From assembly GCA_031213475.1 (NCBI GenBank), contig JARUPZ010000027.1:4086569-4150568 (forward strand): a stretch of DNA of 64,000 nucleotides, in the 5' to 3' direction. The translations under genes were made by a program, and so were the position numbers. Numbering within the stretch: the stretch's first letter is position 1; each line of letters begins with the position of its first letter. Positions 1-60,800 of the stretch are shown here, piece after piece. The stretch is from Nereocystis luetkeana. Lineage: Eukaryota > Sar > Phaeophyceae > Laminariales > Laminariaceae. The notes below the pieces were generated by a model. The model was not told the origin of the DNA. It did not search any database and saw only the letters and a list, made by a program, of their open reading frames with translations.

Positions 1-3000
1 GGGTGGTAGTGTAAGCATTGCGGCTGGTCTCGGAACTGCAGGTGGTGAAGTTGGATTGATAGCAGGCATGGGGACCGTCTCTGTGGGTGGAGAGATTTCA
101 CTCGCCGCAGGGCAGGGCGCTACTATTGGAGGCGCTGTATCCATCACGGCGGGCCACGGAGCTACAGGTGGTGGCGTCGTTGCCCTCACGAGTGGGGGCG
201 TTGCCGTCGGAAATAGTGGGACGGTCAACATCCTGTCCGCCGCAGCGGGCACCACAGGCAATAGTGGCATACTGACCTTCAGCTCGGGTTCCACCACGTC
301 CGGAAATACCGGCAGTGTCATGATTGGCAGCGGTGCAGCCTCGAATGGACAGGCCGGCCTCCTGAGCCTGACCGTGGGCGACACTGACAGCGGGGCTGGT
401 GGTCTTGTGCAGATGGCTGCCGGGCTGTCAACAGATACCACAGGAGGTGCCGTGACGATCTCAAGTGGATCGGGTACAGCAACGAGCAGTGGGACTGTGT
501 CCATCCGATCGCCAGACGCCGGGACTGCAGGTGTGAGCGGTGACTTGGTGTTCAGCTCGGGCAGCAGTAGCTCCGGCGACAGCGGCACGATACTGATGGG
601 TAGTGGTGCGGCCACGTCGGGCGCCGGAGGAGCGGTGAGTCTGACGGTGGGTACGAGCACGTTTACTACAGGAGGATCGCTCACGCTCGCCGCCGGTACC
701 GGAGTCACAGGCGGACTGGTGTCGGTGGCAGCCGGGACTGGCTCTACATCGACTGGGGGCGCCGTGCGCACGGCGGCGGGCCTTGGATCCACTGGTGGGG
801 CATTCGCTGTGGTGGCTGGACAAGGCACGACCAATGCTGGTGGCGCAATCACCGTCGACGCGGGCGAAGGAGCCACGGTGGGTGGAGCCGTCAGCATCAA
901 AGCCGGTCTTGGGGGTTCAGGCCTTGGAGGTGACGTGAGCGTGTCGGCCGGAGGGAGCACTTCATCTGACGGGGGATCCGTGACGATTGTTGGTGGCAGC
1001 GGCAATATCGGCGGTGGTGTAGTGGACGTGACGAGCGGGGCCGTCACCACCGGCAACAGCGGGACGGTCACCATCTTGTCGGCCGCCGCCGGCACCACAG
1101 GCAACAGTGGTATCATGTCCTTCAGCTCGGGTTCTACCACGTCCGGAAACACCGGAAGCGTCATGATCGGCAGTGGTAAAGCAACTGACGGGCAGGCTGG
1201 GCTCCTGAGCCTGACCGTGGGCGACACTGACAGCGGGGCTGGTGGTCTTGTGCAGTTGACGGCCGGCCTGTCCACGGATACCACGGGAGGTGCCGTGACG
1301 ATCTCAAGTGGATCGGGTACAGCGACGAGCAGTGGGGCTGTGTCCATCCGATCGCCAGACGCCGGGACTGCAGGTGTGAGCGGTGACTTGGTGTTCAGCT
1401 CGGGCAGCAGCAGCTCAGGCGACAGCGGCACGGTACTGATCGGTAGTGGTGCGGCCACGTCGGGCGCCGGAGGAGCGGTTAGTCTGACGGTGGGTACGAG
1501 CACGTTTACTACAGGAGGGTCGCTCACGCTTGCTGCCGGTACCGGAGTCACAGGCGGACTGGTGTCGGTGGCAGCCGGGACTGGCTCTACATCAACTGGG
1601 GGTGCTGTAAAAACGGCGGCGGGCCTTGGGTCCACTGGTGGGGCATTCGCTGTGGTGGCTGGACAAGGCACGACCGATGCTGGTGGCGCTGTCACGCTCG
1701 CCGCGGGCGAAGGAGCGACGATGGGCGGAGCTCTCAGCGTCAAGGGTGGTCGTGGGGACTCAGGCGACGGAGGAGACGTGAGCGTGTCGGCCGGAGGGAG
1801 CACTTCGTCTGACGGGGGCTCCGTGACGATTGTTGGTGGCAGCGGTGGTACTGGTGGTGGAGTAGTCGATGTGACGAGCGGGGCCGTCACCACCGGCAAC
1901 AGCGGGGCGGTTACCATCCTGTCCGCTGCCGCCGGCACCACAGGCAATAGTGGTATCATGGCCTTCAGCTCGGGTTCCACCTCATCCGGAAACACCGGCG
2001 GCGTCATGATCGGAAGTGGTGCAGCCTCTAATGGACAGGCCGGCTTGCTGAGTCTGACCGTGGGCGATACTGACAGCGGAGCTGGTGGTCTTGTGCAGTT
2101 GACGGCTGGGCTGTCAACGGATACCACGGGAGGTGCCGTGACACTCTCAAGTGGAGCGGGTACAGCGACGAGCAGTGGGGCTGTGTCCATCCGATCGCCA
2201 GACGCCGGGACTGCAGGTGTGAGCGGCGATTTGGTGTTCAGCTCGGGCAGCAGCAGCTCCGGCAACAGCGGCGCGGTGTCGATTGGTAGTGGTGCGGCCA
2301 CGTCGGGAGCTGGAGGAGCGGTGAGTCTGACGGTGGGTACGAGCACGTTTACTACAGGAGGGTCGCTCACGCTCGCTGCCGGTACCGGAATCACGGGTGG
2401 ACTGGTGTCAGTGGCAGCTGGTACTGGTTCTACATCGATGGGTGGTAGTGTAAGCGTTGCAGCTGGTCTCGGAACTGCAGGTGGTGAGGTTGATATCACG
2501 GCAGGACACGGAACCGTCTCTGCGGGTGGAGAGATTTCACTCGCTGCAGGGCAAGGCGCTACTACCGGAGGCATGGTGACTATTATGGCAGGGCACGGAG
2601 TGTCTAGGGGTGGCCTCGTCACCGTAACGAGTGGGGCGGTCACCACCGGAGACAGTGGGACCGTCACGATCTTTTCAGCCGCAGCGGGAAGTACGGGCAA
2701 TAGCGGCATCCTGGCCTTCAGTTCGGGTTCCACCACATCCGGAAACACCGGAAGCGTCATGATCGGCAGTGGTAAAGCAACTGACGGGCAGGCTGGGCTC
2801 CTGAGCCTGACGGTAGGCGACACTGACAGCGGGGCTGGTGGTCTTGTGCAGTTGACGGCCGGGTTGTCAACCGATACCACGGGAGGTGCTGTGTCGATCT
2901 CAAGCGGAGCGGGTACAGCAACGAGCAGTGGGGCTGTGTCCATCCGATCGCCAGACGCCGGGACTGCAGGTGTGAGCGGTGACTTGGTGTTCAGCTCGGG

Positions 3001-4430
3001 CAGCAGCAGCTCAGGCGACAGTGGCACTGTACTGATCGGCAGTGGTGCGGCCACGTCGGGCGCCGGAGGAGCGGTGAGTCTGACGGTGGGTACGAGCACG
3101 TTTACTACAGGAGGGTCGCTCACGCTCGCCGCCGGTACCGGAGTCACAGGCGGATTGGTGTCAGTGGCAGCCGGGACTGGGTCTACATCGACCGGTGGCG
3201 CCGTGAGCACGGCGGCGGGCCTTGGGTCCACTGGCGGGGCATTCGCTGTGGTGGCTGGACAAGGCACGACCGCTGCGGGTGGCGCAGTCACCGTCGACGC
3301 GGGCGAAGGAGCCACGGTGGGCGGAGCTGTTAGTATCAAAGCCGGTCTTGGGGGCTTAGGTGACGGAGGTGACGTGAGCGTGTCGGCCGGAGGGAGCACC
3401 TCGTCTGACGGGGGATCCGTGACGATTGTTGGCGGCAGCGGTGATATTGGTGGTGGTCGCGTGGACGTGACGAGCGGGGCCGTCACCACCGGCAACAGTG
3501 GGACGGTCACCATCTTGTCAGCCGCAGCGGGAAGTACGGGCAATAGCGGCATCCTGGCCTTCAGCTCGGGTTCCACCACATCTGGAAACACCGGTAGCGT
3601 AATGATTGGCAGTGGTTCAGCCACTGGCGGGCGGGCTGGTCTGCTGAGTCTGAGCGTGGGCGACACTGACAGCGGGGCTGGTGGTCTTGTGCAGATAGCC
3701 GCCGGGTTATCAACCGATACCACAGGAGGTGCTGTGTCGATATCAAGCGGAGCGGGTACAGCAACGAGCAGTGGGGCTGTGTCCATCCGATCGCCAGACG
3801 CCGGGACTGCAGGTGTGAGCGGGGACTTGGTGTTCAGCTCGGGCAGCAGTAGCTCCGGCGACAGCGGCACTGTACTGATCGGTAGTGGTGCGGCCACGTC
3901 GGGGGCCGGAGGAGCGGTGAGTCTGACGGTGGGTACGAGCACGTTTACTACAGGAGGGTCGCTCACGCTCGCCGCCGGTACCGGAGTCACAGGCGGACTG
4001 GTGTCGGTGGCAGCCGGGACTGGTTCTACATCGACCGGTGGCGCCGTGAGCACGGCGGCGGGCCTTGGGTCCACTGGTGGGGCATTCGCTGTGGTGGCTG
4101 GACAAGGCACGACCGCTGCGGGTGGCGCAGTCACCGTCGACGCGGGCGAAGGAGCCACGGTGGGCGGAGCTGTTAGTATCAAAGCCGGTCTTGGGGGCTT
4201 AGGTGACGGAGGTGACGTGAGCGTTTCGGCCGGAGAGAGCACCTCGTCTGACGGGGGCTCCGTGACGATTGTTGGCGGCAGCGGTGATATTGGTGGTGGT
4301 GTCGTGGACGTGACAAGCGGGGCCGTCACCACCGGCAACAGCGGGACGGTCACCATCATGTCGGCCGCCGCCGGCACCACAGGCAACAGTGGTATCATGG
4401 CCTTCAGCTCGGGTTCTACCACGTCCGGAA
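1..4430 (+). repeat. First module group (843, 843, 753, 843, 843 bp)
   Basis: The modules marked at 506, 1349, 2192, 2945 and 3788 are close relatives. They share TSTFTTGGSLTLAAGTGVTG after the marker and the charged loop GLSTDTTGG in place of the AGDSxD loop used by most later modules. The module from 2192 to 2945 is the short form and lacks the GGAVSIKAG...GGDVSVSAG unit pair. After about 4,430 the modules become more varied. The array enters from upstream of the window. Confidence 0.8.
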
Positions 4431-7400
4431 ACACCGGTAGTGTCATGATCGGCAGCGGTTTGGCGACTGGTGGGTCAGGGGGGTTGCTAAGTTTCACTGT
4501 CGGCAGTGGCACAACGGGAGTCGGTGGTGGTGTGAACGTGGTCGCCGGTGACTCTGGCGATGATATTGGTGGTGCCGTTTTTATCGAGAGCGGGGCGGGT
4601 ACACTATCGTCGAGTGGGCCAGTGACAATCCGATCCCCCGATGCCGGCACCGCGGGATCTAGCGGCGAGTTGGTGTTCAGTTCGGGTAGCAGCAGCTCTG
4701 GCAACAGCGGTATGGTGATGATCGGCAGCGGCGCTGCCACCTCGGGGGCTGGTGGGGCTGTAAGTTTGACGGTAGGTACCAGCACGTCTTCATTGGGCGG
4801 GGCACTCACATTGGCAGCTGGTACAGGCGTCACGGGAGGTCTTGTATCAGTGTTGGCCGGCACCGGCTCCACAGCGACAGGTGGCGCTGTCAGTGTAGCC
4901 GCGGGACTCGGCTTCTCCGGTGGCGATGTCTTGGTAACCGCAGGACAGGGTACAACCGATGTCGGTGGGGGAATTACTGCCACGGCGGGGCAGGGTGATA
5001 CGTCAGGTGGATTTTTCAACATCGCAGCTGGGGAAGGTATATCAACTGTCGGCGGGGAGTTTACCATTGAGGCCGGCAAGGGCAGTCAAACTGGTGGAGC
5101 TCTTAGTATTGAAGCCGGGATAGGCGGCACAGGTCCGGGGGGAGATGTAAGCATCACCGCGGGCTCGAGTACAACAGTAACAGGTGGTTCACTGACCATG
5201 GTCGGTGGCAGCGGAGATATCGGTGGTGGGCTCGTAGCCGTCACAAGTGGGGCCACCACCACCGGGGATAGCGGAACGGTCACCATCTTGTCCGCCGCAG
5301 CAGGATCAACGGGTAGTAGTGGTACCATGGTCTTCAGTTCCGGTTCCACCACGTCCGGAAACACCGGTGCCATCATGCTCGGAAGCGGTGCAGCCACGGA
5401 CGGAGCCGGCGGTATGGTTAGCCTGACGGTGGGTGGCGGTACGATCGGTGTGGGCGGTGAGTTGAACGTGGTGGGCGGAAACTCCGGCGACAACGTAGGC
5501 GGTTCGGTTTCGGTCTCAAGTGGGTCGGGGGCTACCTCTTCGAGTGGGTCGGTGATGATTCGATCACCAGATGCTGGAACAGCTGGCGTGAGCGGTGACC
5601 TGCTTTTCAGCTCGGGCGCAAGTACGTCCGGCAACAGTGGCGCAATACTGATCGGCAGTGGCGCGGCCACGTCAGGAGCTGGAGGAGCAGTGAGTCTGAC
5701 GGTAGGAACGAGCACATTCTCGGAGGGGGGGAGGCTCACATTGGCAGCTGGTACGGGTGTAACTGGAGGCCCTGTGTTAATATCTGCAGGTACTGGCATG
5801 ACAGCCACCGGTGGTGCCGTGAGCATAGCGGCAGGCCTCGGACACACCGGTGGGGCCTTCGTTGTCGTGGCCGGAAAGGGCACCACCTACGCCGGAGGTG
5901 AAATTTCTGTCACGGCGGGGCAGGGAGCCGTGACGGGAGGGGCAGTAAGTCTAGGAGCGGGACTAGGTGGTTCGGGTGCCGGAGGAGATGTGAGTGTCTC
6001 GGCAGGAACAAGTACATTTTCTAACGGTGGATCGCTGACCATGGTTGGAGGCAGCGGAGACACGGGTGGTGGACTCGTGTCCATCACAAGCGGAGACGTC
6101 ACCACCGGAGACAGCGGGACGGTTCAAATCTTGTCTGCCGCCGCAGGCACCACGGGTAATAGTGGTGTTATGACCTTCAGCTCGGGCTCCACGACGTCCG
6201 GCAACACCGGCGCTGTTATGATCGGTAGTGGTTCAGCCACGGGTGGAGCGGGTGGTTTGCTGAGTCTGACGGTGGGCAGTGGCACGACGGGAGTAGGCGG
6301 GGCCGTTAACCTGGTGGCCGGGGACTCATCTGGTGATGTAGGCGGTGCAATATCGATCGCGAGCGGGTCGGGCACCGGCTCAACGAGCGGATCGATCGCA
6401 ATCCGATCGCCAGATGCCGGCACGACAGGCGTGAGCGGTGGCTTGGTGTTCAGCTCGGGCACAAGCACGTCCGGTGACAGCGGCACTGTGCTGATCGGCA
6501 GTGGCGCCGCCACATCTGGAGCGGGCGGGGCGGTGAGTCTGACGGTGGGCACGAGCACATTTTCCGAAGGTGGGGGGCTCACATTAGCAGCTGGCACCGG
6601 TGTGACGGGAGGATATGTGTCATTGATGGCTGGCACTGGCTCCTCAGCTGTGGGTGGGACCATAGACGTGGCGGCGGGGGCCGGCCACACAGGCGGGGAC
6701 CTTTTCATGGTAGCGGGAGAAGGCACTACAGATATCGGCGGGGTGATTACTGTAATCGCGGGGCAGGGGGAAACGGCCGGTGGATCCTTCAGCATTGCAG
6801 CAGGACTTGGTGGAACGGAGACAGGAGGAGATGTCAGCATCTCCGCCGGAATTAGTACTAACGCCGATGGGGGCACTCTGAACATAGTTGGTGGCAGTGG
6901 AGCCACGAGCGGTGGTTTACTATCTGTCACGAGCGGGGCCGTCACCACGGGAGATAGCGGGGCCGTCACCATATTGTCTGCCGCGGCAGGAACCACGGGT
7001 AACAGTGGTATCATGGCCTTCAGTTCGGGATCCACCACGACGGGAAACACAGGTGCCGTAATGATTGGTAGTGGTTCAGCCATAAATGGGGCTGGAGGGA
7101 TACTGAGTCTAACGGTGGGCGCCGGCACGGCAGGAGTCGGTGGTGCTGTGAACATGGTAGCTGGAGACTCCGACAATGATGTGGGCGGCGCGGTGTCGAT
7201 CGTGAGTGGGTCAGGTACCACCTCAACAAGTGGATCGGTGACAATTCGATCGCCAGAAGCTGGCACGGCCGGTGCAAGTGGTGACTTAGCATTCAGCTCG
7301 GGCAGCAGTAGCTCCGGCAACAGTGGGGCGGTATTGATCGGAAGTGGGGCGGCAACATCTGGAGCTGGCGGGGCGGTGAGCATGACGGTAGGGACGAGCA

Positions 7401-10400
7401 CATTTGCCGAAGGTGGATATCTGACGTTGGCTGCTGGAACGGGCGTGACAGGTGGTCTAATCTCGGTCGAAGCGGGTACTGGCACGACAGCAGCAGGAGG
7501 TGGAATGAGCATGGCATCAGGGCTCGGCTATACAGGCGGAGATATCTCTGTTGTTGCCGGCCAGGGTACAACTGATGCCGGTGGGGTGGTTACCGTCATC
7601 GCCGGTCAAGGAGGGAATGATGGAGGAGCAGTCAGCATTTCAGCTGGAGACGGGGCCTCTACCCTTGGTGGGGCGCTCAGCATGACAGCCGGCGATGGCG
7701 GTCAAACCGGCGGGGATCTAAGCATCATGGCTGGGCTCGGTGGCACTAGTGCCGGAGGAGACGCTAGTGTCGCCGCCGGGGATAGCAGCGGGGCAAATGG
7801 GGGCTCGATAAGTGTTATCGGCGGCAGCGGAAACACCGGTGGTGGCTCCGTGTCCGTCACCAGTGGTGCCGTTATCACCGGAGACAGCGGGGCCGTCACC
7901 ATTTTGTCCGCTGTAGCGGGAACCATAGGCAACAGCGGCACCATGGTCCTTAGTTCGGGATCTACCACGTCCGGAAATACGGGCGCAGTCATGATCGGCA
8001 GCGGTGCAGCTGCAAATGGAGCCGGCGGTATGATGAGTATGACGGTGGGCAGCGGTACAACAGGAGTCGGCGGGGAATTGAATTTGGCGGCTGGAGACTC
8101 AGATGACGACATCGGGGGCGCCATATCGATTGCAAGCGGATCGGGCGTGTCCTCCACGAGCGGGTCAATCCGTATCAGATCACCAAATGCCGGAACCATG
8201 GGCGTAAGCGGTGACCTGGTATTCAGCTCGGGCAGCAGCAGCTCCGGTAACAGCGGCGAAGTGCTTATCGGTACTGGCGCCGCCACGTTAGGAGCTGGGG
8301 GGGCAATTAGCTTGACAGTAGGCACGAGCACAGTTGCGGAAGGAGGAGCACTCACGTTGGCTGCGGGTACAGGGGTCGCCGGGGGACCTGTGTCATTGGC
8401 GGCTGGAACAGGTTCCACCGCGACAGGGGGGGATCTTAGTATCGCAGCGGGCCTTGGAAATACTGGCGGGGCCCTGCGTATCATGGCTGGACGGGGCACA
8501 GCCGACACGGGTGGGACGGTCACTATCACGGCGGGGGAGGGAGCCGTCATCGGAGGGTCAGTAAGTCTAGGAGCGGGACTAGGTGGTTCGGGTGCCGGAG
8601 GAGATGTGAGTGTCTCGGCAGGAACAAGCACATTTTCTGACGGTGGATCGCTGACCATGGTTGGAGGCAGCGGAGATACAGGTGGTGGACTCGTGTCCAT
8701 CACAAGCGGGGGCGTCACCACCGGAGACAGCGGGACCGTTCAAATCTTGTCTGCCGCCGCAGGTACCACGGGCAATAGTGGTGCCATGGTCTTCAGTTCG
8801 GGCTCCACGACGTCAGGCAACACCGGCGCTGTCATGGTCGGCAGCGGTGCAGCCACGGGTGGAGCGGGCGGTATGCTCAGTCTGACGGTGGGCAGTGGCA
8901 CGACAGGAGCCGGGGGGATGGTTAACCTGGTGGCCGGGGACTCATCTGGCGACGTAGGCGGCGCAGTATCGATCGCTAGCGGGTCGGGCACTGGCTCGAC
9001 GAGCGGATCGATCGCAATCCGATCGCCCGATGCCGGCACGACCGGCGTGAGCGGCGACCTTGTGTTCAGCTCGGGCTCAAGCAGCTCGGGCAACAGCGGC
9101 ACTGTGCTGATCGGCAGTGGCGCCGCCACGTCTGGATCTGGCGGGGCGGTGAGTCTGACGGTGGGCACGGGCACGCTAGCCGAGGGAGGGGCACTCACGC
9201 TTGCAGCTGGTACAGGCGTTACAGGCGGGGCTGTGAGCATGGCAGCAGGTAGCGGTACATCGTCAAACGGCGGAGCTGTGAGCGTGTCTGCAGGTCTCGG
9301 CTATACAGGCGGCAACGCCTTGGTTACAGCTGGACAAGGTACGTTCGACGCTGGGGGGTATGTCATGGTGACGGCCGGGCAAGGGGCTATTACCGGAGGA
9401 GCGCTCAGCATTGAAGCCGGTCTCGGAGGAACCGGCTTTGGAGGAGATGTAAGCATCTCAGCTGGTGATAGTACATCAGCCGACGGAGGGTCACTGACGA
9501 TTGTTGGAGGTAGTGGATCTACTGGTGGTGGGGTTGTGACCATCACAAGCGGGGGGGTTTCCACCGGAGAGAGCGGGGTCGTTTCTATTACGTCCGCCAT
9601 TGCGGGAACAACGGGAAATAGTGGTATCTTGGAGTTTAGCTCAGGCTCAACCACATCGGGCAACACCGGCGCCATCATGATTGGTAGTGGTATAGCCACA
9701 AATGGAGCGGGTGGTATGTTGAGTCTGACGGTGGGGAGTGGCACGACAGGAGTGGGTGGTGGTGTCAACCTCATCGCTGGTGACACCGACGACAACGTGG
9801 GCGGTTCAGTGTCAATTACTAGCGGATCGGGCACTACGTCGACAAGTGGATCAGTCAATATTAGGTCGCCGGATGCCGGCACAGCAGGCGTAAGCGGTAA
9901 TATGGTGTTCAGTTCGGGCGCCAGCACCTCGGGAGATAGCGGGACAGTGCTTATCGGGAGCGGCGCCGCAACGTCCGGGGCTGGCGGAGCAGTCAGTCTG
10001 ACGGTAGGCACGAGCACCTCTGCCGAAGGGGGCGTGCTAACATTGGCAGCTGGTACGGGTATGACGGGAGGGGCAGTGACCATATCGAGCGGAACTGGCG
10101 ATTCGGCCACCGGTGGGAGTAACAGCATTTCGGCAGGCCTCGGTTACACCGGCGGGGCGATTACGATTGAGGCTGGAGAGGGAACGGATGAAGAAGGAGG
10201 TGCAATGTCTTTACTTGCGGGACAAGGCGCTACCCATGGTGGTGCGGTGACAGTCACGGCCGGGGGCGGGGGCGTAAGTGGGGGACTCGTTGCCGTCACA
10301 AGCGGAACCGTCACCACGGGTAACAGTGGCTCGGTCACCATCTCGTCCGCCGCAGCGGGAACCACGGGTAACAGCGGTGTATTGGCCTTTAGCTCGGGCT

Positions 10401-13400
10401 CTACCACGTCGAGCAACACTGGAGCCGTCATGATCGGCAGCGGTGCAGCCACGGGTGGAGCAGGCGGTATGCTCAGTCTGACGGTGGGAAGCGGCACGAC
10501 GGGAGTCGGCGGGGCCGTGAACCTGGTGGCCGGGGACTCATCTGGTGATGTAGGCGGCGCGGTATCTATCGCTAGCGGGTCGGGCACTGGCTCGACGAGC
10601 GGGCCGATCGCAATCCGATCGCCCGATGCCGGGACGACCGGTGTGAGCGGGGGTCTTGTGTTCAGCTCGGGCTCGAGCAGCTTGGGAAACAGCGGTGCTG
10701 TGCTGATCGGCAGTGGCGCCGCCACGTCTGGAGCTGGTGGAGGGGTGAGTCTGACGGTGGGTACGAGCTCGTTTACCACAGGAGGGTCGCTCACGCTGGC
10801 GGCTGGAACGGGTGTGACCGGAGGGCCTATGAGCATGGCAGCGGGTACGGGCACATCATCGACAGGAGGTACGGTTGGCATCGCCGCGGGTCTCGGTTAC
10901 ACAGGCGGGGCGTTTTCCGTTGTATCCGGGAAGGGCACGGCCGGCGCCGGTGGTGCGATGACAGCAGCGGCGGGGCAAGGAGAGGTGGCAGGAGGGTCAT
11001 TCAGCCTCGCAGCAGGACTCGGTGGTACGGGTGTGGGAGGAGATATGAGTGTCTCAGCAGGTGAAAGTACCGCAGCCGACGGTGGGTCGCTGATTATGCT
11101 CGGAGGCAGCGGAGACACCAGTAGCGGTCTCGTGAGAGTGGCCAGCGGAGTAGTTACCACGGGTAATAGCGGGGCTGTGACCATCGAATCTGCTGCAGCC
11201 GGAGCCACGGGTAACAGCGGCACGATGACCTTCAGCTCGGGCTCCACCACGTCAGGCAACACTGGTGCTGTCATGGTCGGCAGCGGTGCAGCCACGGGCG
11301 GAGCTGGCGGTATGCTCAGTCTGACGGTGGGCAGTGGCACGACAGGAGTCGGAGGGAAGGTGAACCTGGTGGCCGGGGACTCATCTGGCGACGTAGGCGG
11401 CGCAGTATCGATCGCTAGCGGGTCGGGCACTGGCTCGACGAGCGGATCGATCGCAATCCGATCGCCCGATGCCGGCACGACCGGCGTGAGCGGCGACCTT
11501 GTGTTCAGCTCGGGCGCCAGCAGCTCGGGCAACAGCGGCACTGTGCTGATCGGCAGTGGCGCCGCCACGTCTGGATCTGGCGGGGCGGTGAGTCTGACGG
11601 TGGGCACGGGCACGCTAGCCGAGGGAGGGGCACTCACGCTTGCAGCTGGTACAGGCGTTACAGGCGGGGCTGTGAGCATGGCAGCAGGTAGCGGTACATC
11701 GTCAAACGGCGGAGCTGTGAGCGTGTCTGCAGGTCTCGGCTATACAGGCGGCAACGCCTTGGTTACAGCTGGACAAGGTACGTTCGACGCTGGGGGGTAT
11801 GTCATGGTGACGGCCGGGCAAGGGGCTATTACCGGAGGAGCGCTCAGCATTGAAGCCGGTCTCGGAGGAACCGGCTTTGGAGGAGATGTAAGCATCTCAG
11901 CTGGTGATAGTACATCAGCCGACGGAGGGTCACTGACGATTGTTGGAGGTAGTGGATCTACTGGTGGTGGGGTTGTGACCATCACAAGCGGGGGGGTTTC
12001 CACCGGAGAGAGCGGGGTCGTTTCTATTACGTCCGCCATTGCGGGAACAACGGGAAATAGTGGTATCTTGGAGTTTAGCTCAGGCTCAACCACATCGGGC
12101 AACACCGGCGCCATCATGATTGGTAGTGGTATAGCCACAAATGGAGCGGGTGGTATGTTGAGTCTGACGGTGGGGAGCGGCACGACAGGAGTGGGTGGTG
12201 GTGTCAACCTCATCGCTGGTGACACCGACGACAACGTGGGCGGTTCAGTGTCAATTACTAGCGGATCGGGCACTACGTCGACAAGTGGATCAGTCAATAT
12301 TAGGTCGCCGGATGCCGGCACAGCAGGCGTAAGCGGTAATATGGTGTTCAGTTCGGGCGCCAGCACCTCGGGAGATAGCGGGACAGTGCTTATCGGGAGC
12401 GGCGCCGCAACGTCCGGGGCTGGCGGAGCAGTCAGTCTGACGGTAGGCACGAGCACCTCTGCCGAAGGGGGCGTGCTAACATTGGCAGCTGGTACGGGTA
12501 TGACGGGAGGGGCAGTGACCATATCGAGCGGAACTGGCGATTCGGCCACCGGTGGGAGTAACAGCATTTCGGCAGGCCTCGGTTACACCGGCGGGGCGAT
12601 TACGATTGAAGCTGGAGAGGGAACGGATGAAGAAGGAGGTGCAATGTCTTTACTTGCGGGACAAGGCGCTACCGATGGTGGTGCGGTGACAGTCACGGCC
12701 GGGGGCGGGGGCGTAAGTGGGGGTCTCGTTGCCGTCACAAGCGGAACCGTCACCACGGGTAACAGTGGCTCGGTCACCATCTCGTCCGCCGCAGCGGGAA
12801 CCACGGGTAACAGCGGTGTATTGGCCTTTAGCTCGGGCTCTACCACGTCGGGCAACACTGGAGCCGTCATGATCGGCAGCGGTGCAGCCACGGGTGGAGC
12901 GGGTGGTATGCTCAGTCTGACGGTGGGAAGTGGCACGACGGGAATCGGCGGGGCCGTGAACCTGGTGGCCGGGGACTCATCTGGTGATGTAGGCGGCGCG
13001 GTATCTATCGCTAGCGGGTCGGGCACTGGCTCGACGAGCGGGCCGATCGCAATCCGATCGCCCGATGCCGGGACGACCGGTGTGAGCGGGGGTCTTGTGT
13101 TCAGCTCGGGCTCGAGCAGCTCGGGAAACAGCGGTGCTGTGCTGATCGGCAGTGGCGCCGCCACGTCTGGAGCTGGCGGAGCGGTGAGTCTGACGGTGGG
13201 TACGAGCTCGTTTACCACAGGAGGGTCGCTCACGCTGGCGGCTGGAACGGGTGTGACCGGAGGGCCTATGAGCATGGCAGCGGGTACGGGCACATCATCG
13301 ACAGGAGGTACGGTTGGCATCGCCGCGGGTCTCGGTTACACAGGCGGGGCGTTTTCCGTTGTATCCGGGAAGGGCACGGCCGGCGCCGGTGGTGCGATGA

Positions 13401-48800: not shown

Positions 48801-51800
48801 GGCAGCGGTACTGCCACGTCGGGTACAGGCGGGGCCGTGAGCTTGACGGTAGGCACAGGCACATCTGGCGACGGAGGGTCTCTGACGTTGGCAGCCGGTA
48901 CGGCTGAGACAGGTGGATTGGTTTCCATGGAGGCGGGCACCGGCACGTCGAAAACCGGTGGAGCCGTGAGCATCGCGGCGGGCCAAGGCTACACCGGTGG
49001 TGGCGTCTCCGTCGTTGCTGGAAAGGGCACCACCGTTACGGGTGGGGCGATCACCGTCACGTCGGGGCAAGGCACAGCGATTGGCGGGGCTCTCAGCATC
49101 GCTGCCGGTCTCGGTGGCACAGGCGCAGGAGGAGCTGTAGATGTATCGGCCGGTCAAAGCACTTCGACCAACGGTGGCTCGCTGACCATGGTTGGCGGCA
49201 GCGGAAGCACCGGTGGCGGTCTTGTGGCTGTCACGAGCGGAGCCGCCACCACGGGGGACAGCGGGCTCGTCACGATAGCGTCCGGCGCAGTAACAAATGT
49301 AGGCAACAGCGGGGCGATGGCCTTCAGCTCGGGCACCACTGACTCGGGCAATACGGGCGCGGTCATGATCGGCAGTGGTGTAGCCACGGATGGAGCCGGT
49401 GGTATGCTGAGTCTGACTGTGGGCGGTAGTACGACAGGAGTCGGCGGTACCGTCAATATCGACGCCGGGACCTCCGGTGACAACGTGGGCGGCGCCGTAT
49501 CGATTACAAGCGGATCAGGCACATTGACATCGAGTGGATCTATGACGATTCAAACACCGAATGCGGGTACTACTGGAGGCGTGAGCGGAGATTTAGTGTT
49601 CAGCTCAGGAAGCAGTAGCTCCGGTAAAAGTGGCAGCGTTTCGATCGGCAGCGGTGCGGCCACATCGGGAGCAGGCGGGTCAGTGAGCTTGACAGTAGGC
49701 ACAGGCACATCCGCCGACGGAGGGGCGCTAACGTTGTCAGCAGGTACAGGGGAGACAGGTGGGTCGGTGTCCATGATGGCAGGCACTGGAACTACAGAAA
49801 GCGGCGGTGCCGTGACCATCAAGGCCGGCCTCGGGTACACCGGTGGATCCTTCTCCGTCGTTGCTGGAGAAGGGACGACGAATACCGGCGGGGCGGTCAC
49901 CGTCACAGCGGGGCAAGGCGATACTGTAGGCGGAACAGTAAATATTGAATCCGGAAAAGGAGTGCAAAACACAGGAGGAGGCATGACCATTGTAGCAGGT
50001 GAAGGTGAGCAGTCTGGAGGAGCACTGAGCATCGCTGCCGGACTCGGCAGCACGGGAGATGGAGGAGATTTCAGCGTCTCGGCCGGCGCGAGTACCTCAG
50101 CGAATGGAGGATCCCTACGCCTTGTGGCAGGAACCGGCAGCTCTGCTGGCGGTCTTGTGGCCATCACGAGCGGGGCCGTCGTCGCCAATGGCGACAGTGG
50201 CATCGTCACCATCATGTCCGCCGCGGTTGGAACCACAGGTAATAGCGGCATCATGACATTTAGCTCTGGCTCCACGGCGTCGGGCAACACTGGCGCCGTC
50301 GTGATCGGCAGCGGTGCAGCCACGGATGGAACGGGTGGTATGCTGAGTCTGGCGGTGGGTGGTGGCACATCGGGAGTCGGTGGGTCTGCGAGTTTGACGG
50401 CTGGAGATTCTGGCAACGACGTCGGTGGCGCCGTGTCGATCACCAGCGGATCGGGCACAACGAGTGGGGCAGTGACCATCCGATCTCCGGATGCTGGTAC
50501 ATTAAACAGCGGTGACCTGGTGTTCAGCTCGGGCACCAGCACCTCCGGCGACAGCGGTACGGTGCACATCGGCAGCGGTACTACAACGTCTGGTGCAGGC
50601 GGGGCCGTGAGCTTGACGGTAGGCACAGGCACATCTGGCCAGGGAGGGGCTCTGACGTTGGCAGCTGGTACGGCTGAGACAGGCGGATTGGTGTCGATGA
50701 AGGCGGGAACCAGCACCTCGGAAACCGGTGGCGCCGTGAGCATCGCGGCCGGCGAAGGCTACACCGGTGGTGCCGTCTCCGTCGTTGCTGGACAAGGCAC
50801 CACCGTTACGGGTGGGGCGATCACCGTCACGTCAGGGCAAGGCACAGCGATTGGCGGGGCTCTCAGCATCGCTGCCGGTCTCGGTGGCACAGGCACAGGA
50901 GGAGCTGTAGATGTATCGGCCGGTCAAAGCACTTCGACCAACGGTGGTACGCTGACCATGGTTGGTGGCAGTGGAAGCACCGGTGGGGGTCTTGTGGCCG
51001 TCACGAGCGGAGCCGCCACCACGGGAGACAGCGGGGTCGTCACGATAGCGTCCGGCGCAGTTACAAATGTAGGCAACAGCGGGGCGATGACCTTCAGCTC
51101 GGGTACCACCTACTCGGGCAATACGGGCGCCGTCATGATCGGCAGTGGTGTAGCCACGGGTGGGGCCGGTGGCATGTTGAGTCTGACTGTGGGCGGGGCC
51201 ACAGCGGGAGTCGGCGGGTCTGCGAGTTTGACGGCTGGAGACTCCGACGACAACGTGGGCGGCGCCGTGTCGATCACAAGCGGATCGGGAACAACGAGTG
51301 GATCGGTGACCATCCAATCGCCGGATGCTGGCACTTTAAACAGCGGTGACCTGGTGTTCAGCTCGGGCACCAGCACCTCCGGCGACAGCGGTACGGTGCA
51401 CATCGGCAGCGGTACTGCCACGTCGGGTACAGGCGGGGCCGTGAGCTTGACGGTAGGCACAGGCACATCTGGCGACGGAGGGTCTCTGACGTTGGCAGCC
51501 GGTACGGCTGAGACAGGTGGATTGGTTTCCATGGAGGCGGGCACCGGCACGTCGAAAACCGGTGGAGCCGTGAGCATCGCGGCGGGCCAAGGCTACACCG
51601 GTGGTGGCGTCTCCGTCGTTGCTGGAAAGGGCACCACCGTTACGGGTGGGGCGATCACCGTCACGTCGGGGCAAGGCACAGCGATTGGCGGGGCTCTCAG
51701 CATCGCTGCCGGTCCCGGTGGCACAGGCGCAGGAGGAGCTGCGAGTGTATCGGCCGGTCAAAGCACCTCGGATAACGGTGGCCCACTGACCATGGTTGGT

Positions 51801-54800
51801 GGCAGCGGAAGCACCGGTGGCGGTCTTGTGGCTGTCACGAGCGGAGCCGCCACCACGGGGGACAGCGGGATCGTCACGATAGCGTCTGGTGCAGTAACAA
51901 ATGCAGGCAACAGCGGGGCGATGGCCTTCAGCTCGGGTACCACCGACTCGGGCAATACGGGCGCGGTCATGATCGGCAGTGGTGTAGCCACGGATGGAGC
52001 CGGTGGTATGCTGAGTCTGACTGTGGGCGGTAGTACGACAGGAGTCGGCGGTACCGTCAATATCGACGCCGGGACCTCCGGTGACAACGTGGGCGGCGCC
52101 GTATCGATTACAAGCGGATCAGGCACATTGACATCGAGTGGATCTATGACGATTCAAACACCGAATGCGGGTACTACTGGAGGCGTGAGCGGAGATTTAG
52201 TGTTCAGCTCAGGAAGCAGTAGCTCCGGTAAAAGTGGCAGCGTTTCGATCGGCAGCGGTGCGGCCACATCGGGAGCAGGCGGGTCAGTGAGCTTGACAGT
52301 AGGCACAGGCACATCCGCCGACGGAGGGGCGCTAACGTTGTCAGCAGGTACAGGGGAGACAGGTGGGTCGGTGTCCATGATGGCAGGCACGGGAACTACA
52401 GAAAGCGGCGGTGCCGTGACCATCAAGGCCGGCCTCGGGTACACCGGTGGATCCTTCTCCGTCGTTGCTGGAGAAGGGACGACGGATACCGGCGGGGCGG
52501 TCACCGTCACAGCGGGGCAAGGCGATACTGTAGGCGGAACAGTAAATATTGAATCCGGAAAAGGAGTGCAAAACACAGGAGGAGGCATGACCATTGTAGC
52601 AGGTGAAGGTGAGCAGTCTGGAGGAGCACTGAGCATCGCTGCCGGACTCGGCAGCACGGGAGATGGAGGAGATTTCAGCGTCTCGGCCGGCGCGAGTACC
52701 TCAGCGAATGGAGGATCCCTACGCCTTGTGGCAGGAACCGGCAGCTCTGCTGGCGGTCTTGTGGCCATCACGAGCGGGGCCGTCGTCGCCAATGGCGACA
52801 GTGGCATCGTCACCATCATGTCCGCCGCGGTTGGAACCACAGGTAATAGCGGCATCATGACATTTAGCTCTGGCTCCACGGCGTCGGGCAACACTGGCGC
52901 CGTCGTGATCGGCAGCGGTGCAGCCACGGATGGAACGGGTGGTATGCTGAGTCTGGCGGTGGGTGGTGGCACATCGGGAGTCGGTGGGTCTGCGAGTTTG
53001 ACGGCTGGAGATTCTGGCAACGACGTCGGTGGCGCCGTGTCGATCACCAGCGGATCGGGAACAACGAGTGGGGCAGTGACCATCCGATCTCCGGATGCTG
53101 GTACATTAAACAGCGGTGACCTGGTGTTCAGCTCGGGCACCAGCACCTCTGGCGACAGCGGTACGGTGCACATCGGCAGCGGTACTACAACGTCTGGTGC
53201 AGGCGGGGCCGTGAGCTTGACGGTAGGCACAGGCACATCTGGCCAGGGAGGGGCTCTGACGTTGGCAGCTGGTACGGCTGAGACAGGCGGATTGGTGTCG
53301 ATGAAGGCGGGAACCAGCACCTCGGAAACCGGTGGCGCCGTGAGCATCGCGGCCGGCGAAGGCTACACCGGTGGTGCCGTCTCCGTCGTTGCTGGACAAG
53401 GCACCACCGTTACGGGTGGGGCGATCACCGTCACGTCGGGGCAAAGCACCGCGACCGGCGGGGCTCTCAGCATCGCTGCCGGTCCCGGTGGCACAGGCTC
53501 AGGAGGAGCTGTAGATGTATCGGCCGGTCAAAGCACTTCGACCAACGGTGGTACGCTGACCATGGTTGGTGGCAGTGGAAGCACCGGTGGGGGTCTTGTG
53601 GCCGTCACGAGCGGAGCCGCCACCACGGGAGACAGCGGGGTCGTCACGATAGCGTCCGGCGAAGTGACAAATGCAGGCAACAGCGGAGCGATGACCATCA
53701 GCTCGGGCACCACCGACTCCGGCAATACCGGCGCGGTCATGATCGGCAGTGGTGTAGCCACGGGTGGGGCCGGTGGTATGCTGAGTCTGGTGGTGGGCGG
53801 TGGTACGACGGGAGTCGGCGGGTCTGCGAGTTTGACGGCTGGAGACTCTGACGACAACGTGGGCGGCGCCGTGTCGATCACAAGCGGATCGGGAACAACG
53901 AGTGGATCGGTGACCATCCAATCGCCAGGTGCTGGTACATTAAACAGCGGTGACCTGGTGTTCAGCTCGGGCACTAGCACCTCCGGCGACAGCGGCACGG
54001 TGCACATCGGCAGCGGTACTGCCACGTCGGGTACAGGCGGGGCCGTGAGCTTGACGGTAGGCACAGGCACATCTGGCGACGGAGGGTCTCTGACGTTGGC
54101 AGCTGGTACGGCTGAGACAGGCGGATTGGTTTCCATGGAGGCGGGCATCGGCACGTCGAAAACCGGTGGAGCCGTGAGCATCGCGGCGGGCCAAGGCTAC
54201 ACCGGTGGTGGCGTCTCCGTCGTTGCTGGAAAGGGCACCACCGTTACGGGTGGGGCGATCACCGTCACGTCGGGGCAAGGCACAGCGATTGGCGGGGCTC
54301 TCAGCATCGCTGCCGGTCTCGGTGGCACAGGCGCAGGAGGAGCTGTGAGTTTATCGGCTGGTCTCAGCACCTCGACCAACGGTGGCACGCTGGATATGGT
54401 TGGTGGCAGCGGAAGCACCGGTGGCGGTCTTGTGGCCGTCACGAGCGGAGCCGCCACCACGGGAGACAGCGGGATCGTCACGATAGCGTCTGGTGCAGTT
54501 ACAAATGCAGGCAACAGCGGGGCGATGACCTTCAGCTCGGGTACCACCGACTCGGGCAATACGGGCGCCGTTATGATCGGCAGTGGTGTAGCCACGGATG
54601 GAGCCGGTGGTATGCTGAGTCTGACGGTGGGCGGTAGTACGACAGGAGTCGGCGGTACCGTCAATATCGACGCCGGGGCCTCCGGTGACAACGTGGGCGG
54701 CGCCGTATCGATTACAAGCGGATCAGGCACATTGACATCGAGTGGATCTATGACGATTCAAACACCGAATGCGGGTACTACTGGAGGCGTGAGCGGAGAT

Positions 54801-57800
54801 TTAGTGTTCAGCTCAGGAAGCAGTAGCTCCGGTAAAAGTGGCAGCATTTCGATCGGCAGCGGTGCGGCCACATCGGGAGCAGGCGGGTCAGTGAGCTTGA
54901 CAGTAGGCACAGGCACATCCGCCGACGGAGGGGCGCTAACGTTGTCAGCAGGTACAGGGGAGACAGGTGGGTCGGTGTCCATGATGGCAGGCACTGGAAC
55001 TACATCTACCGGAGGTGGCACACGTATCGAGGCGGGTCTTGGTAACACAGGAGGTGCAGTCACCGTCATAGCGGGAGAGGGAACAGCAAGCGCAGGCGGT
55101 GATATGGCCATCAGAGCGGGCCAAGGAGCGACCGTTGGCGGTGCTCTCGCCATGAAGGCAGGAACCGGCGCTACGGCTGGTGGTCTAGTATCTGTCACGA
55201 GCGGGGCCGTCTCCACTGGAGACAGCGGGGTCCTCACGTTTATGTCCGCTGCCGCTGGAACCACGGGCAACAGCGGTATCTTGACATTCGGTTCAGGAAC
55301 TACCACATCTGGCAACACCGGCGCTGTCATGATTGGCAGCAGTGCAGCGACGGGTGGAGCAGGCGGTCTGTTGAGCCTTACGGTGGGTGGTGGCACGACT
55401 GGTGTTGGCGGTACCGTGACTATCGACGCCGGGGACTCCGCTGACAACGTGGGCGGCGCCGTGTCGATCACCAGCGGATCGGGAACAACGAGTGGATCGG
55501 TGACCATCCGATCGCCGGATGCTGGCACATTAAACAGCGGTGACCTGGTGTTCAGCTCCGGCACCAGCACCTCCGGCGACAGCGGTACGGTGCGCATCGG
55601 CAGCGGTACTACAACGTCGGGAGCAGGCGGAGCCGTAAGCTTGACGGTAGGCACAGGCACATCTGGCCAGGGAGGGGCTCTGACGTTGGCAGCTGGTACG
55701 GCTGAGACAGGCGGATTGGTGTCGATCGAGGCGGGAACCAGTACATCGGAAACCGGTGGAGCCGTGAGCATTGCGACCGGCGAAGGCTACACCGGTGGTG
55801 CCTTCTCCGTCGTTGCTGGACAAGGCACCACCGTTACGGGTGGGGCGATCACCGTCACGTCGGGGCAAGGCGCCGCGACCGGCGGGGCTCTCAGCATCGC
55901 TGCCGGTCTCGGTGGCACAGGCGCAGGAGGAGCTGTGAGTGTATCGGCCGGTCAAAGCACTTCGACCAACGGTGGCCCGCTGACCATGGTTGGTGGCAGT
56001 GGAAGCACCGGTGGGGGCCTTGTGGCCGTCACGAGCGGAGCCGCCACCACGGGAGACAGCGGGGTCGTCACGATAGCGTCCGGCGCAGTTACAAATGCAG
56101 GCAACAGCGGGGCGATGACCATCAGCTCGGGTACCACCTACTCGGGCAACACCGGCGCCGTCATGATCGGCAGTGGTGTAGCCACGGATGGAGCCGGTGG
56201 TATGTTAAGTCTGACCGTTGGCACTGGTACAACGGGAGTAGGCGGGGCCCTGAGTTTGAAGGCCGGAACCTCTGACGATAACCTGGGCGGTGATGTGTCG
56301 ATCACAAGTGGATCGGGCACAACGAGTGGATCGGTGACCATCCAATCGCCAGGTGCTGGTACATTAAACAGCGGTGACCTGGTGTTCAGCTCCGGCACCA
56401 GCACCTCCGGCGACAGCGGCACGGTGCACATCGGCAGCGGTACTGCCACGTCGGGTGCAGGCGGGGCCGTGAGCTTGACGGTAGGCACAGGAACATCTGG
56501 CGACGGGGGGTCTCTGACGTTGGCAGCTGGTACGGCTGAGACAGGCGGATTGGTGTCGATGGAAGCGGGAACCAGTACATCGGAAACCGGCGGAGCCGTG
56601 AGCATCGCGGCGGGCCAAGGCTACACCGGTGGTGGCGTCTCCGTCGTTGCTGGAAAGGGCACCACCGTTACGGGTGGGGCGATCACCGTCACGTCGGGAC
56701 AAGGCACAGCGATTGGCGGGGCTCTCAGCATCGCTGCCGGTTCCGGTGGCACAGGCGCAGGAGGAGCTGTGAGTGTATCGGCCGGTCAAAGCACTTCGAC
56801 CAACGGTGGCCCGCTGACCATGGTTGGTGGCAGCGGAAACACCGGTGGCGGTCTTGTGGCCGTCACGAGCGGAGCCGCCACCACGGGAGACAGCGGGCTT
56901 GTCACGATAGCGTCCGGCGCAGTTACAAATGCAGGCAACAGCGGGGCGATGACCATCAGCTCGGGCACCACCGACTCGGGCAACACCGGCGCCGTCATGA
57001 TCGGCAGCGGCGCAGCCACGGATGGGGCCGGTGGCATGCTGAGTCTGACGGTGGGGGTTAGCACCACAGGGGTTGGCGGTACCGTCAACATCGACGCCGG
57101 GACCTCCGGTGACAACGTGGGCGGCGCCGTGTCAATTACGAGCGGATCAGGCACATTGACATCGAGTGGGCCTATCATAATCCAATCACCAAACGCTGGC
57201 GCAGGGGGCGTGAGCGGAGATTTAGTGTTCAGCTCGGGGACCAGCGGCTCTGGCAACAGTGGCAGCGTATTGATCGGCAGCGGTGCGGCCACGTCGGGAG
57301 AAGGTGGGGCAGTGAGCTTGACGGTAGGGACAAGCACATCGGGAAAAGGAGGGTTGTTGACGTTGGCAGCAGGCACGGGTGTGACTGGTGGATCCGTGTC
57401 AATGGCGGCGGGCACCGGTACTACAGCCACTGGCGGTGGAACACGTATCGAGGCGGGTCTTGGTAACACCGGAGGTACGATCACCGTCATAGCGGGAGAG
57501 GGAACAGCAAGCGCAGGCGGTGATACAACCATCACAGCGGGTCAAGGAGCGACCGTTGGCGGTGATCTTACCGTGACGGCAGGAACCGGTGCCGCGGCTG
57601 GCGGTGTAGTCGCTGTCACGAGCGGGGCCGTCACCAACGGAGACAGCGGGCCCGTTAACATATATTCTTCCGCCGCTGGGACCACGGGCAACAGCGGCAT
57701 CATGACCTTCGAATCAGGATCTACCACATCTGGCAACACCGGCGCCGTCATGATCGGCAGCGGTGCAGCTACGAATGGGGTCGGTGGCATGCTGAGCCTC

Positions 57801-60800
57801 ACAGTGGGCACTGGCACGATGGGCGTTGGCGGTACCGTCAGCATCGACGCCGGGGACTCCGCTGACAACGTGGGGGGCGCCGTGTCGATCACGAGCGGCT
57901 CAGGCACTTCGTCGTCGAGTGGAGCTATCACGATACAATCACCGAATGCCGGTACGTCAGGCACGAGCGGCGGTCTGGTCTTCAGCTCGGGCACCAGCAG
58001 CTCCGGCAACAGCGGCACGGTCCACATCGGCAGTGGGGAAGCGACCGCAGGAGTAGGTGGAGCAGTCAGTCTGACCGTCGGACTGGGTACCACGACAGGC
58101 GGAGCTTTGGACGTAGCGGCTGGCGAAGGGGCAACCGGCGGAATTCTAAGCATCACTGCTGGAGAAGGCACAGCCGGCGTCGGTGGCGCGGCAACGTTTC
58201 TCGCGGGAGTCGGATCCACCACTGGCGGGGCTCTGAGTATTGCCGGTGGGTCGGGAACAGCGAACTTTGGAGGCCAAACCAGCCTCCAAGGAGGAGCCGG
58301 AGCCACCACCGGAGGAGCCCTCATCATCAAAGGAGGAGGCGGGGGCACAGACTTTGGGGGAGCCGCGAGTATCGCCGGTGGGCTGAGCACCTTGGGGACA
58401 GGAGGTGACCTGACCATTGCAGGAGGAGGTGGCGCCAAGACCGGAGGTGGTGCGGTGTCCATCAGCAGTGGAACCACGACGGCGGGCGCCAGTGGCACCG
58501 TCGTTGTCACGTCCGCCAACGCTGGGACGAGTGCGGGAAGTGGCCTTGTATCGTTCAGCTCAGGCACAAGCACGGGTGGTGCCACCGGCGCCGTCATGAT
58601 CGGCAGCGGTGCAGCCACGGGTGGGGCCGGCGGTATGCTGAGCCTCACAGTGGGCACTGGCACGACGGGCGTTGGCGGTACCGTCAGCATCGACGCCGGG
58701 GACTCCGCTGACAACGTGGGGGGCGCCGTGTCGATCACGAGCGGCTCAGGCACTTCGTCGTCGAGTGGAGCTATCACGATACAATCACCGAATGCCGGTA
58801 CGTCAGGCACGAGCGGCGGTCTGGTCTTCAGCTCGGGCACCAGCAGCTCCGGTAACAGCGGAACAGTGCACATCGGCAGTGGGGAAGCGACCGCAGGAAA
58901 AGGTGGAGCAGTCAGTCTGACCGTCGGACTGGGTACCACGACAGGCGGAGCTTTGGACGTAGCGGCTGGCGAAGGGGCAACCGGCGGAGCTCTAAGCATC
59001 ACTGCTGGAGAAGGCACAGCCGGCGTCGGTGGCGCGGCAACGTTTCTCGCGGGAGTCGGATCCACCACTGGCGGGGCTCTGAGTATTGCCGGTGGGTCGG
59101 GAACAGCGAACTTTGGAGGCCAAACCAGCCTCCAAGGAGGAGCCGGAGCCACCACCGGAGGAGCCCTCATCATCAAAGGAGGAGGCGGGGGCACAGACTT
59201 TGGGGGAGCCGCGAGTATCGCCGGTGGGCTGAGCACCTCGGGGACAGGAGGTGACCTGACCATTGCAGGAGGAGGTGGCGCCAAGACCGGAGGTGGTGCG
59301 GTGTCCATCAGCAGTGGAACCACGACGGCGGGCGCCAGTGGCACCGTCGTTGTCACGTCCGCCAACGCTGGGACGAGTGCTGGAAGTGGCCTTGTATCGT
59401 TCAGCTCAGGCACAAGCACGGGTGGTGCCACCGGCGCCGTCATGATCGGCAGCGGTGCAGCCACGGGTGGGGCCGGCGGTATGTTGAGCCTCACAGTGGG
59501 CAGTGGCACGACGGGCGTTGGCGGTACCGTCAGCATCGACGCCGGGGACTCCGCTGACAACGTGGGGGGCGCCGTGTCGATCACGAGCGGCTCAGGCACT
59601 TCGTCGTCGAGTGGAGCTATCACGATACAATCACCGAATGCCGGTACGTCAGGCACGAGCGGTGGTCTGGTCTTCAGCTCGGGCACCAGCAGCTCCGGTA
59701 ACAGTGGAACAGTGCACATCGGCAGTGGGGAAGCGACCGCAGGAGTAGGTGGAGCAGTCAGTCTGACCGTCGGACTGGGTACCACGACAGGCGGAGCTTT
59801 GGACGTAGCGGCTGGCGAAGGGTCAACCGGCGGAGCTCTAAGCATCACTGCTGGAGAAGGCACAGCCGGCGTCGGTGGCGCGGCAACGTTTCTCGCGGGA
59901 GTCGGATCCACCACTGGCGGGGCTCTGAGTATTGCCGGTGGGTCGGGAACAGCGAACTTTGGAGGCCAAACCAGCCTCCAAGGAGGAGCCGGAGCCACCA
60001 CCGGAGGAGCCCTCATCATCAAAGGAGGAGGCGGGGGCACAGACTTTGGGGGAGCCGCGAGTATCGCCGGTGGGCTGAGCACCTCGGGGACAGGAGGTGA
60101 CCTGACCATTGCAGGAGGAGGTGGCGCCAAGACCGGAGGTGGTGCGGTGTCCATCAGCAGTGGAACCACAACAGCGGGCGCCAGTGGCACCGTCGTTGTC
60201 ACGTCCGCCAACGCTGGGACGAGTGCTGGAAGTGGCCTTGTATCGTTCAGCTCAGGCACAAGCACGGGTGGTGCCACCGGCGCCGTCATGATCGGCAGCG
60301 GTGCAGCCACGGGTGGGGCCGGCGGTACGCTGAGCCTCACAGTGGGCACTGGCACGACGGGCGTTGGCGGTACCGTCAGCATCGACGCCGGGGACTCCGC
60401 TGACAACGTGGGGGGCGCCGTGTCGATCACGAGCGGCTCAGGCACTTCGTCGTCGAGTGGAGCTATCACGATACAATCACCGAATGCCGGTACGTCAGGC
60501 ACGAGCGGCGGTCTGGTCTTCAGCTCGGGCACCAGCAGCTCCGGTAACAGCGGAACAGTGCACATCGGCAGTGGGGAAGCGACCGCAGGAAAAGGTGGAG
60601 CAGTCAGTCTGACCGTCGGACTGGGTACCACGACAGGCGGAGCTTTGGACGTAGCGGCTGGCGAAGGGGCAACCGGCGGAGCTCTAAGCATCACTGCTGG
60701 AGAAGGCACAGCCGGCGTCGGTGGCGCGGCAACGTTTCTCGCGGGAGTCGGATCCACCACTGGCGGGGCTCTGAGTATTGCCGGTGGGTCGGGAACAGCG

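Follow-up and report, generated by a model that had tools for sequence, protein, structure and literature searches.

Repeats of repeats have been described in titin and in spider silk. In titin, as set out in the available sections of PMC10665226, domains form super-repeats, and those that share a position within the super-repeat are alike, above all in the central zone. Spider major ampullate silk, in the available sections of PMC9779670, has ensemble repeats of 3 to 6 units, and the units of MaSp2.2 are homogenised gene-wide (mean 93.5%). Omnitrophota and titin are named in the accessible part of a survey on huge proteins (PMC11573180), in which neither ‘stramenopile’ nor ‘solenoid’ occurs. 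Here we analyse a stretch of 64,000 nt from the brown alga Nereocystis luetkeana (assembly GCA_031213475.1, 465 Mb in 1,987 contigs; contig JARUPZ010000027.1, hereafter C27, positions 4086569-4150568), which as a whole we call the window. Most of a single gene lies within the window; its predicted protein is very large, nearly devoid of cysteine and rich in Gly, Ser, Thr and Ala, and our literature searches for such a giant repeat protein gave none describing one among the matches listed. An original prediction, made from the letters of the window, had described in it a ~15-kb super-period of module triplets ending in long (L) or short (S) modules in the order LLSSSS. We consider it probable that this is one giant gene for a fibre protein, and that LLSSSS is a pattern of lengths made amid local copying, not a trace of sequence ancestry.

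On the plus strand a single open frame, split into the pieces 2-21820 and 21684-63998, spans the window. The first piece extends ~21.7 kb upstream of the window (C27:4064868-4108385, 14,506 stop-free codons); the second runs to a stop at 64,155, just beyond the window (C27:4108180-4150722, then TGA). Joined, they give ~28,605 codons counted from the first ATG with no other stop inside; an exon upstream of this ATG is possible. The junction (21805-21818, plus strand) consists of a run of 13 Gs at 21,805-21,817 and a one-base frame change at ~21,818, because of which one module step measures 844 instead of 843 bp. When the 844-bp module was aligned to five other modules, the sole unmatched column fell on the base directly following the Gs. 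The likeliest cause is a wrong homopolymer length in the reads or the assembly; a genuine frame change at this run is possible.

The 28,618 codons of both pieces include 26.3% Gly, 15.7% Ser, 13.2% Thr and 12.4% Ala, with just four Cys and 11 Trp. Among the 843-bp modules the ratio of nonsynonymous to synonymous differences (pN/pS) is 0.24-0.31 (433 pairs in four divergence classes), which argues that the giant frame is translated and under constraint. The C-terminal part of ~170 residues (plus strand, from approximately 63640 to 63998 and ending beyond the window) is free of GG units; it matched nothing in Pfam at a cut-off of 0.01 and no PDB sequence at a cut-off of 1. Long open frames were also seen on the minus strand at window positions 1-5079 and 57542-63721 (up to 4,185 codons including flank); they are probably a by-product of the repeats and of codon use.

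The protein is predicted to be built from units of ~15 residues (~14.8 aa in the standard module) in which, in the modules inspected by eye, alternating hydrophobic residues and a turn are followed by GG or SG. A standard module has 19 units (281 residues, 843 bp). Triplets consist of two 19-unit modules and a third of 17 (short) or 21 (long) units, and an LLSSSS cycle amounts to 338 units, or ~4,996 residues. Placed with a 300-bp probe, 76 modules were found in the window, with steps of 843, 843 and 753 or 930 bp. From 243 on, 69 of them form 23 triplets (242-57671, plus strand); in every triplet two modules measure 834-849 bp (standard 843), and the third measures either 753-756 bp (short) or 930-936 bp (long). 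The third modules follow the order S LL SSSS LL SSSS LL SSSS LL SS, a fixed order of module classes in which LLSSSS occurs three times and is followed by LLSS.

The number of modules and the L/S order of the original prediction thus survive re-measurement. All eight of its long-module coordinates are recovered when a constant of 263 is added to the probe positions (4368, 6984, 19356, 21973, 34345, 36961, 49288 and 51892), and the super-period steps agree as well: 14,988, 14,989 and 14,943 bp between first-long modules and 14,989, 14,988 and 14,931 bp between second-long modules. On the plus strand, the first-long modules of cycles 1 to 4 occupy 4367-5296, 19355-20284, 34344-35273 and 49287-50222, and the second-long modules 6983-7912, 21972-22901, 36960-37892 and 51891-52826. 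Across the 89 modules examined in and upstream of the window, the extra unit pair is inserted at the identical place in 9/9 long modules (one of them upstream).

The cycle does not extend over the whole array. After 57,672 there are seven modules without triplet order (57672-63576, plus strand, end assumed), with steps of 846, 846, 846, 846, 828 and 846 bp. Upstream of the window, where the original prediction advised looking for further cycles, the array goes on for another 13 modules, as far as -10,443; their steps are 753, 843, 753, 843, 843, 930, 843, 843, 843, 753, 843, 843 and 753 bp, an order that contains no LLSSSS. Since the order breaks at both sides, the rule is confined to the 23 central triplets.

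Local copying inside the array is observed as directly as the frame and the modules. Long runs at module or triplet shifts, with 97.5-99.1% identity, cross L/S borders. At a shift of 2439 bp, the runs are 8867-11733, 12208-14179 and 23796-32330 (~99%; the last 99.0%); other runs are 41454-47006 (shift 2421, 98.0%), 47865-52404 (shift 2604, 97.5%), 37775-39331 (shift 849, 98.8%), 57776-60576 in the region without triplet order (shift 846, 98.5%) and 17624-18897 (shift 843, 98.5%), in addition to shorter ones. In cycle 2, ~4.5 copies of 2439 bp make up an array that extends into the long module behind it. The runs do not end after a whole number of triplets (8,535 bp corresponds to 3.5 x 2,439); exchange or conversion, beyond clean duplication, is therefore involved. 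Long triplet T12 is 94% like short triplets T09-T11, long T18 is 89% like T16-T17, and short T20 is 94% like long T19. Identity profiles by bin break sharply within modules and reveal L/S chimeras. The first-long module of cycle 3 (at 34345) has a 5′ half 97-100% identical to the preceding S module (m51 to m54, bins 1-4), with 50-61% in later bins; in the last two S triplets (52827-57671, plus strand), the first S module (at 54496) carries the 5′ half of the preceding long module (m75 to m78; bins 1-4 96-100%, bin 5 88%, bin 6 64%).

Each SSSS block has its own recent copying history. In the block of cycle 1 (7913-17668, plus strand), the S modules at 9600, 12039 and 14478 are near-identical (4 and 38 differences) and the last one, at 16917, is distinct. 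All four are near-identical in cycle 2 (22902-32657, plus strand), with 5-11 base differences per module between the copies compared. In cycle 3 (37893-47618, plus strand) it is the first S module, at 39592, that is distinct, and those at 42025, 44446 and 46867 are near-identical. Ten of the 12 S modules in these blocks are recent copies of neighbours. The near-identical pair in cycle 4 is formed by the two long modules, with 5 differences in 936 positions. Homogenisation is limited to neighbours; cycles are ~70% alike. Unequal crossing-over or gene conversion between neighbours would copy triplets locally, across L/S borders, and the same local exchange would recently have replaced the sequences of the S blocks and of one LL pair. 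Copies may have been gained independently, block by block, until there were four S modules, or those already present may have been overwritten where they stood.

The cycles themselves show no convincing memory of phase. Mean triplet identity declines smoothly with distance, from 84.2% at lag 1 to 72.0, 71.0 and 70.1% at lags 5, 6 and 7, with no peak at lag 6, the super-period. Module identity at lag 18 (0.7077) lies between the values at lags 15 (0.7181) and 21 (0.6980), and the module autocorrelation has a strong period of three with no signal at lags 18 or 36. Triplets T00, T01, T06, T07, T13 and T14, mostly outside the triplet-shift runs, are 67-72% identical irrespective of phase. In a comparison of tails that omitted m72 and m75 (recent copies of each other) and the upstream m5, identity was 60.3% in first-long pairs, 63.7% in second-long pairs and 62.8% between first and second; these six modules do not group by class. 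The original prediction had also seen the extra unit pair of the second-long modules of cycles 1-3 as related, and here a weak likeness is left: 57.8% DNA identity among second-long modules vs 52.9% between first and second and 52.4% among first-long modules (six modules). The best match at least 12 modules away was in the same phase in 1 of 66 cases (expected, 4.0). Trees were built for 69 of the 89 modules, with 66 rows labelled by phase; the label changes 56 times on the tail tree and 58 times on the head tree (raw counts without a shuffle control). At shifts of 14,988, 14,989, 14,943, 14,931 and 29,919 bp, no 250-bp run reached 93% (60-bp windows). Modules at equivalent super-repeat positions, the ones that are alike in titin, are not more alike here than others.

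The ancient duplication of a 4,996-residue block, which the original prediction had proposed, is left unsupported: the autocorrelation, the triplet matrix, the phase test, the nearest distant match, the trees and the shift runs are all without a convincing super-period signal. In a modified form, a 15-kb block would have been duplicated long ago and overwritten later by local conversion that preserved length classes and numbers. We think this unlikely, as the long modules do not form a clade on the trees (at best 3/8, support 0). Still, both module types look old, because the position of the extra pair is common to all nine long modules and 9/15 S tails make one clade (support 91); a duplication so old that all modules drifted to a common 67-70% is possible. 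In simulated duplication/deletion arrays, growth by blocks of up to six triplets gave 0-1,574 periodic arrays per 20,000, the range spanning the choice of start and deletion rate, as in the simulations below.

Inside the giant frame, three tandem copies of Peptidase_S74 (Pfam E 7.6e-39) begin at residues 1968, 2317 and 2666, 349 apart (C27:4070772-4073054, plus strand, from ~15.8 to ~13.5 kb before the window starts). At the DNA level these tandem units are 98.7% identical. This stretch has a PDB match to myelin regulatory factor (E 4.8e-8), and profile comparison establishes the S74 homology of the predicted protein. S74 domains help beta-structured fibres to trimerise and then cleave themselves by means of a serine and a lysine. 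The motif of this Ser/Lys dyad, at the position we take it to have in myelin regulatory factor, is present in all three copies as judged by sequence. Two further weak S74 matches were noted on contigs C16 and C24.

The repeats belong to a family without a Pfam or PHROG match. The last 2,359 residues in the window (P0001) matched 0 Pfam families and 0 PHROG entries, and a piece of the upstream array 0 Pfam families. A search with P0001 gave four related proteins; 20 others match P0002, with the repeats checked in part of them. One of these 20, P0018, which is N0F65_003511 of the oomycete Lagenidium giganteum, has 37% identity with P0001 over 201 residues, and its second half has importin-like Pfam matches below the cut-off. 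P0004 combines EGF domains and the same kind of repeats with a C-terminal S74 that matches tail-fibre PHROGs, and in P0020 a segment like the S74 part of the giant protein (E 8e-16) is followed by such repeats. Relatives of the repeats with SG/GG units are encoded in 2 of the 196 viral stretches scanned (contigs L046 and L047), one within a gene matching a head-decoration PHROG and the other without a PHROG match. None were found in 326 prokaryote stretches, and a scan of six viral stretches with the C-terminal region gave none either. On C27 itself there is a smaller second repeat relative (C27:2943332-2944369, minus strand, frame of 378 aa).

We propose that the giant chain would form a long, trimeric, beta-structured fibre similar to the shaft of a viral tail fibre. 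Peptidase_S74 near the N-terminus would aid trimer formation and probably cut the chain, presumably by self-cleavage. The fibre would most likely be secreted, with the cell surface, or a scale, hair or extruded body, as its putative site. Assuming 0.48 nm per unit, the chain would measure ~0.9 micrometre and a cycle ~160 nm, values that are arithmetic on this assumption. A mastigoneme protein was also considered as the function; nothing among the matches listed links the giant protein to one.

Several observations weigh against the reading of one giant fibre protein with a locally produced length pattern. S74 domains of phage fibres are C-terminal, and those of the giant protein are internal; Pfam gives no S74 in P0020 at 0.01. 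The best PDB profile match is a tail fibre connector with E 0.059, and the viral fold matches are weak (three at E 10, the best 0.011, 0/3 at E 0.001 or less). An AlphaFold2 single-chain model of one module, with a confidence score (pLDDT) of 55, lacks any strand of at least 3 residues, a result that would fit strands paired between chains and equally a failed prediction. Conversion in place is indistinguishable from duplication in these data. One module bin shows an excess of 1.35 points at lags 18/36, with a naive standard error of 0.57, while the values of the other bins range from -0.5 to 0.6; we read this excess as noise because there are eight bins and the pairs are not independent. Finally, the order is improbable under simple random models, and a purely local, unconstrained process must account for it. 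In a 28-triplet string that includes the upstream region, with its irregular groups scored as triplets, a periodic stretch as long as the observed one (25) came up in 5 of 100,000 shuffles; when strings were drawn with geometric runs, 72 of 100,000 reached 22. Eight L and 14 S can be arranged in 319,770 ways; 39 of these are perfectly periodic with a period up to 8, as is one of the 10,010 ways of sharing the same L and S numbers over four runs each. Testing began only once the pattern had been seen, so that these figures flatter the order and the true surprise is smaller.

That local duplications and conversions happened to leave 2-4-2-4-2-4-2 by chance is quite possible, although we would stop short of calling it probable. 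Copying is frequent, recent and crosses L/S borders, the pattern was picked out after reading one window, and the order fails at both sides. Against chance alone, simulated arrays were rarely periodic: 0-7 per 20,000 with one-triplet steps, 0-162 with steps of up to two triplets and 1-23 with steps of up to three.

The long-range structural rule, which the original prediction had offered beside duplication, is possible, but it stops at both ends of the array. The LL spacing (338 units, ~4,996 residues) might be under selection if the fibre or its partners need a regular axial repeat. Three blocks with differing recent copying histories each have four S, and the four LL runs each have two modules; because the count of four rests on such different histories, a length rule is still viable. 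The low frequencies of comparable order in the two simple nulls point the same way, and the available part of PMC10665226 describes, in titin, an earlier case where the order of modules is linked to a partner. On the other side, the order breaks upstream and downstream, and the lengths of long and short triplets differ by only 7%. Such a ruler is a tentative explanation and a somewhat unlikely one. Its full version, a micrometre-scale trimeric fibre with paired 21-unit modules every 338 units as a molecular ruler and with selection restoring two long and four short triplets after each rewriting, we regard as doubtful and distinctly speculative. The equal L and S counts may reflect chance in local copying or selection on spacing.

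An order produced by wrong copy numbers of near-identical triplets in the assembly is very improbable. Near-identical 2.4-kb triplets are hard to assemble, and the frame change at the G run would be a sign of imperfect polishing. However, leftover contigs C1291, C1169, C1278 and C1466 (19.8-23.2 kb) match C27 at 100% over the 5,000, 5,175, 2,500 and 3,849 bp compared; all three S74 copies are present on C1291, C1169 and C1466, and one on C1278. Leftover contigs of 20-23 kb are probably single reads, and if so, such reads can span a 9.8-kb block. The compared block copies also differ by 3-38 bases per module. No leftover contig fell inside the SSSS blocks among the 20 of 39 candidates scored. 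Three more short leftover contigs, C1753, C1000 and C1393, also cover 5′ sequence of the gene and carry shorter frames. Elsewhere in the assembly there are 131 matches to rbcL (488 aa), on contig L043 and many other contigs, mostly short; those on short contigs are probably leftover plastid reads. The rbcL product has PDB matches to Rubisco large chains, as expected of a photosynthetic eukaryote; together with P0018 it would suggest, as a guess, a stramenopile. The cryptophyte phycoerythrin family gave no match in the assembly and none in control genomes either, so that it says nothing on the taxon.

Of more weight than the order of lengths is the giant gene itself, together with its family of repeats. 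Titin and PKZILLA are the yardsticks of size for such a protein; with ~28,600 residues in one frame (bar one base at the G run), the algal protein would be among the largest predicted from one gene. Its repeats match no Pfam or PHROG profile; related ones are encoded by an oomycete and on viral contigs. Module-length order and module-sequence ancestry are decoupled in the array, which makes it a natural test case for selection on number and order.

The claim that no described repeat protein has this register may hold for the exact register, going by the matches listed; repeats of repeats as such are described in the available sections on titin (PMC10665226) and spider silk (PMC9779670). With the A-band super-repeats of titin, the algal protein shares one giant chain and repeats of repeats in a fixed order. 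Titin, in the part of PMC10665226 available, has positional likeness, whereas the algal array has no such memory, and the muscle Ig/FnIII domains of titin are unrelated in sequence. Silk, as covered by the available part of PMC9779670, is also a Gly-rich fibrous protein with hierarchical, homogenised repeats, of variable ensemble size; its motifs differ, and it is homogenised over the gene, unlike the algal array with its neighbour-limited homogenisation. The Lagenidium giganteum protein has the same kind of unit in a chain of 1,705 aa, with a second half free of repeats and no S74 match in Pfam. In viral tail fibres with Peptidase_S74 and in myelin regulatory factor, S74 stands beside repeats as it does here; the algal protein differs in having three tandem internal S74 copies with ~25,800 residues after them, and it is in two viral contigs that relatives of its repeats are found.

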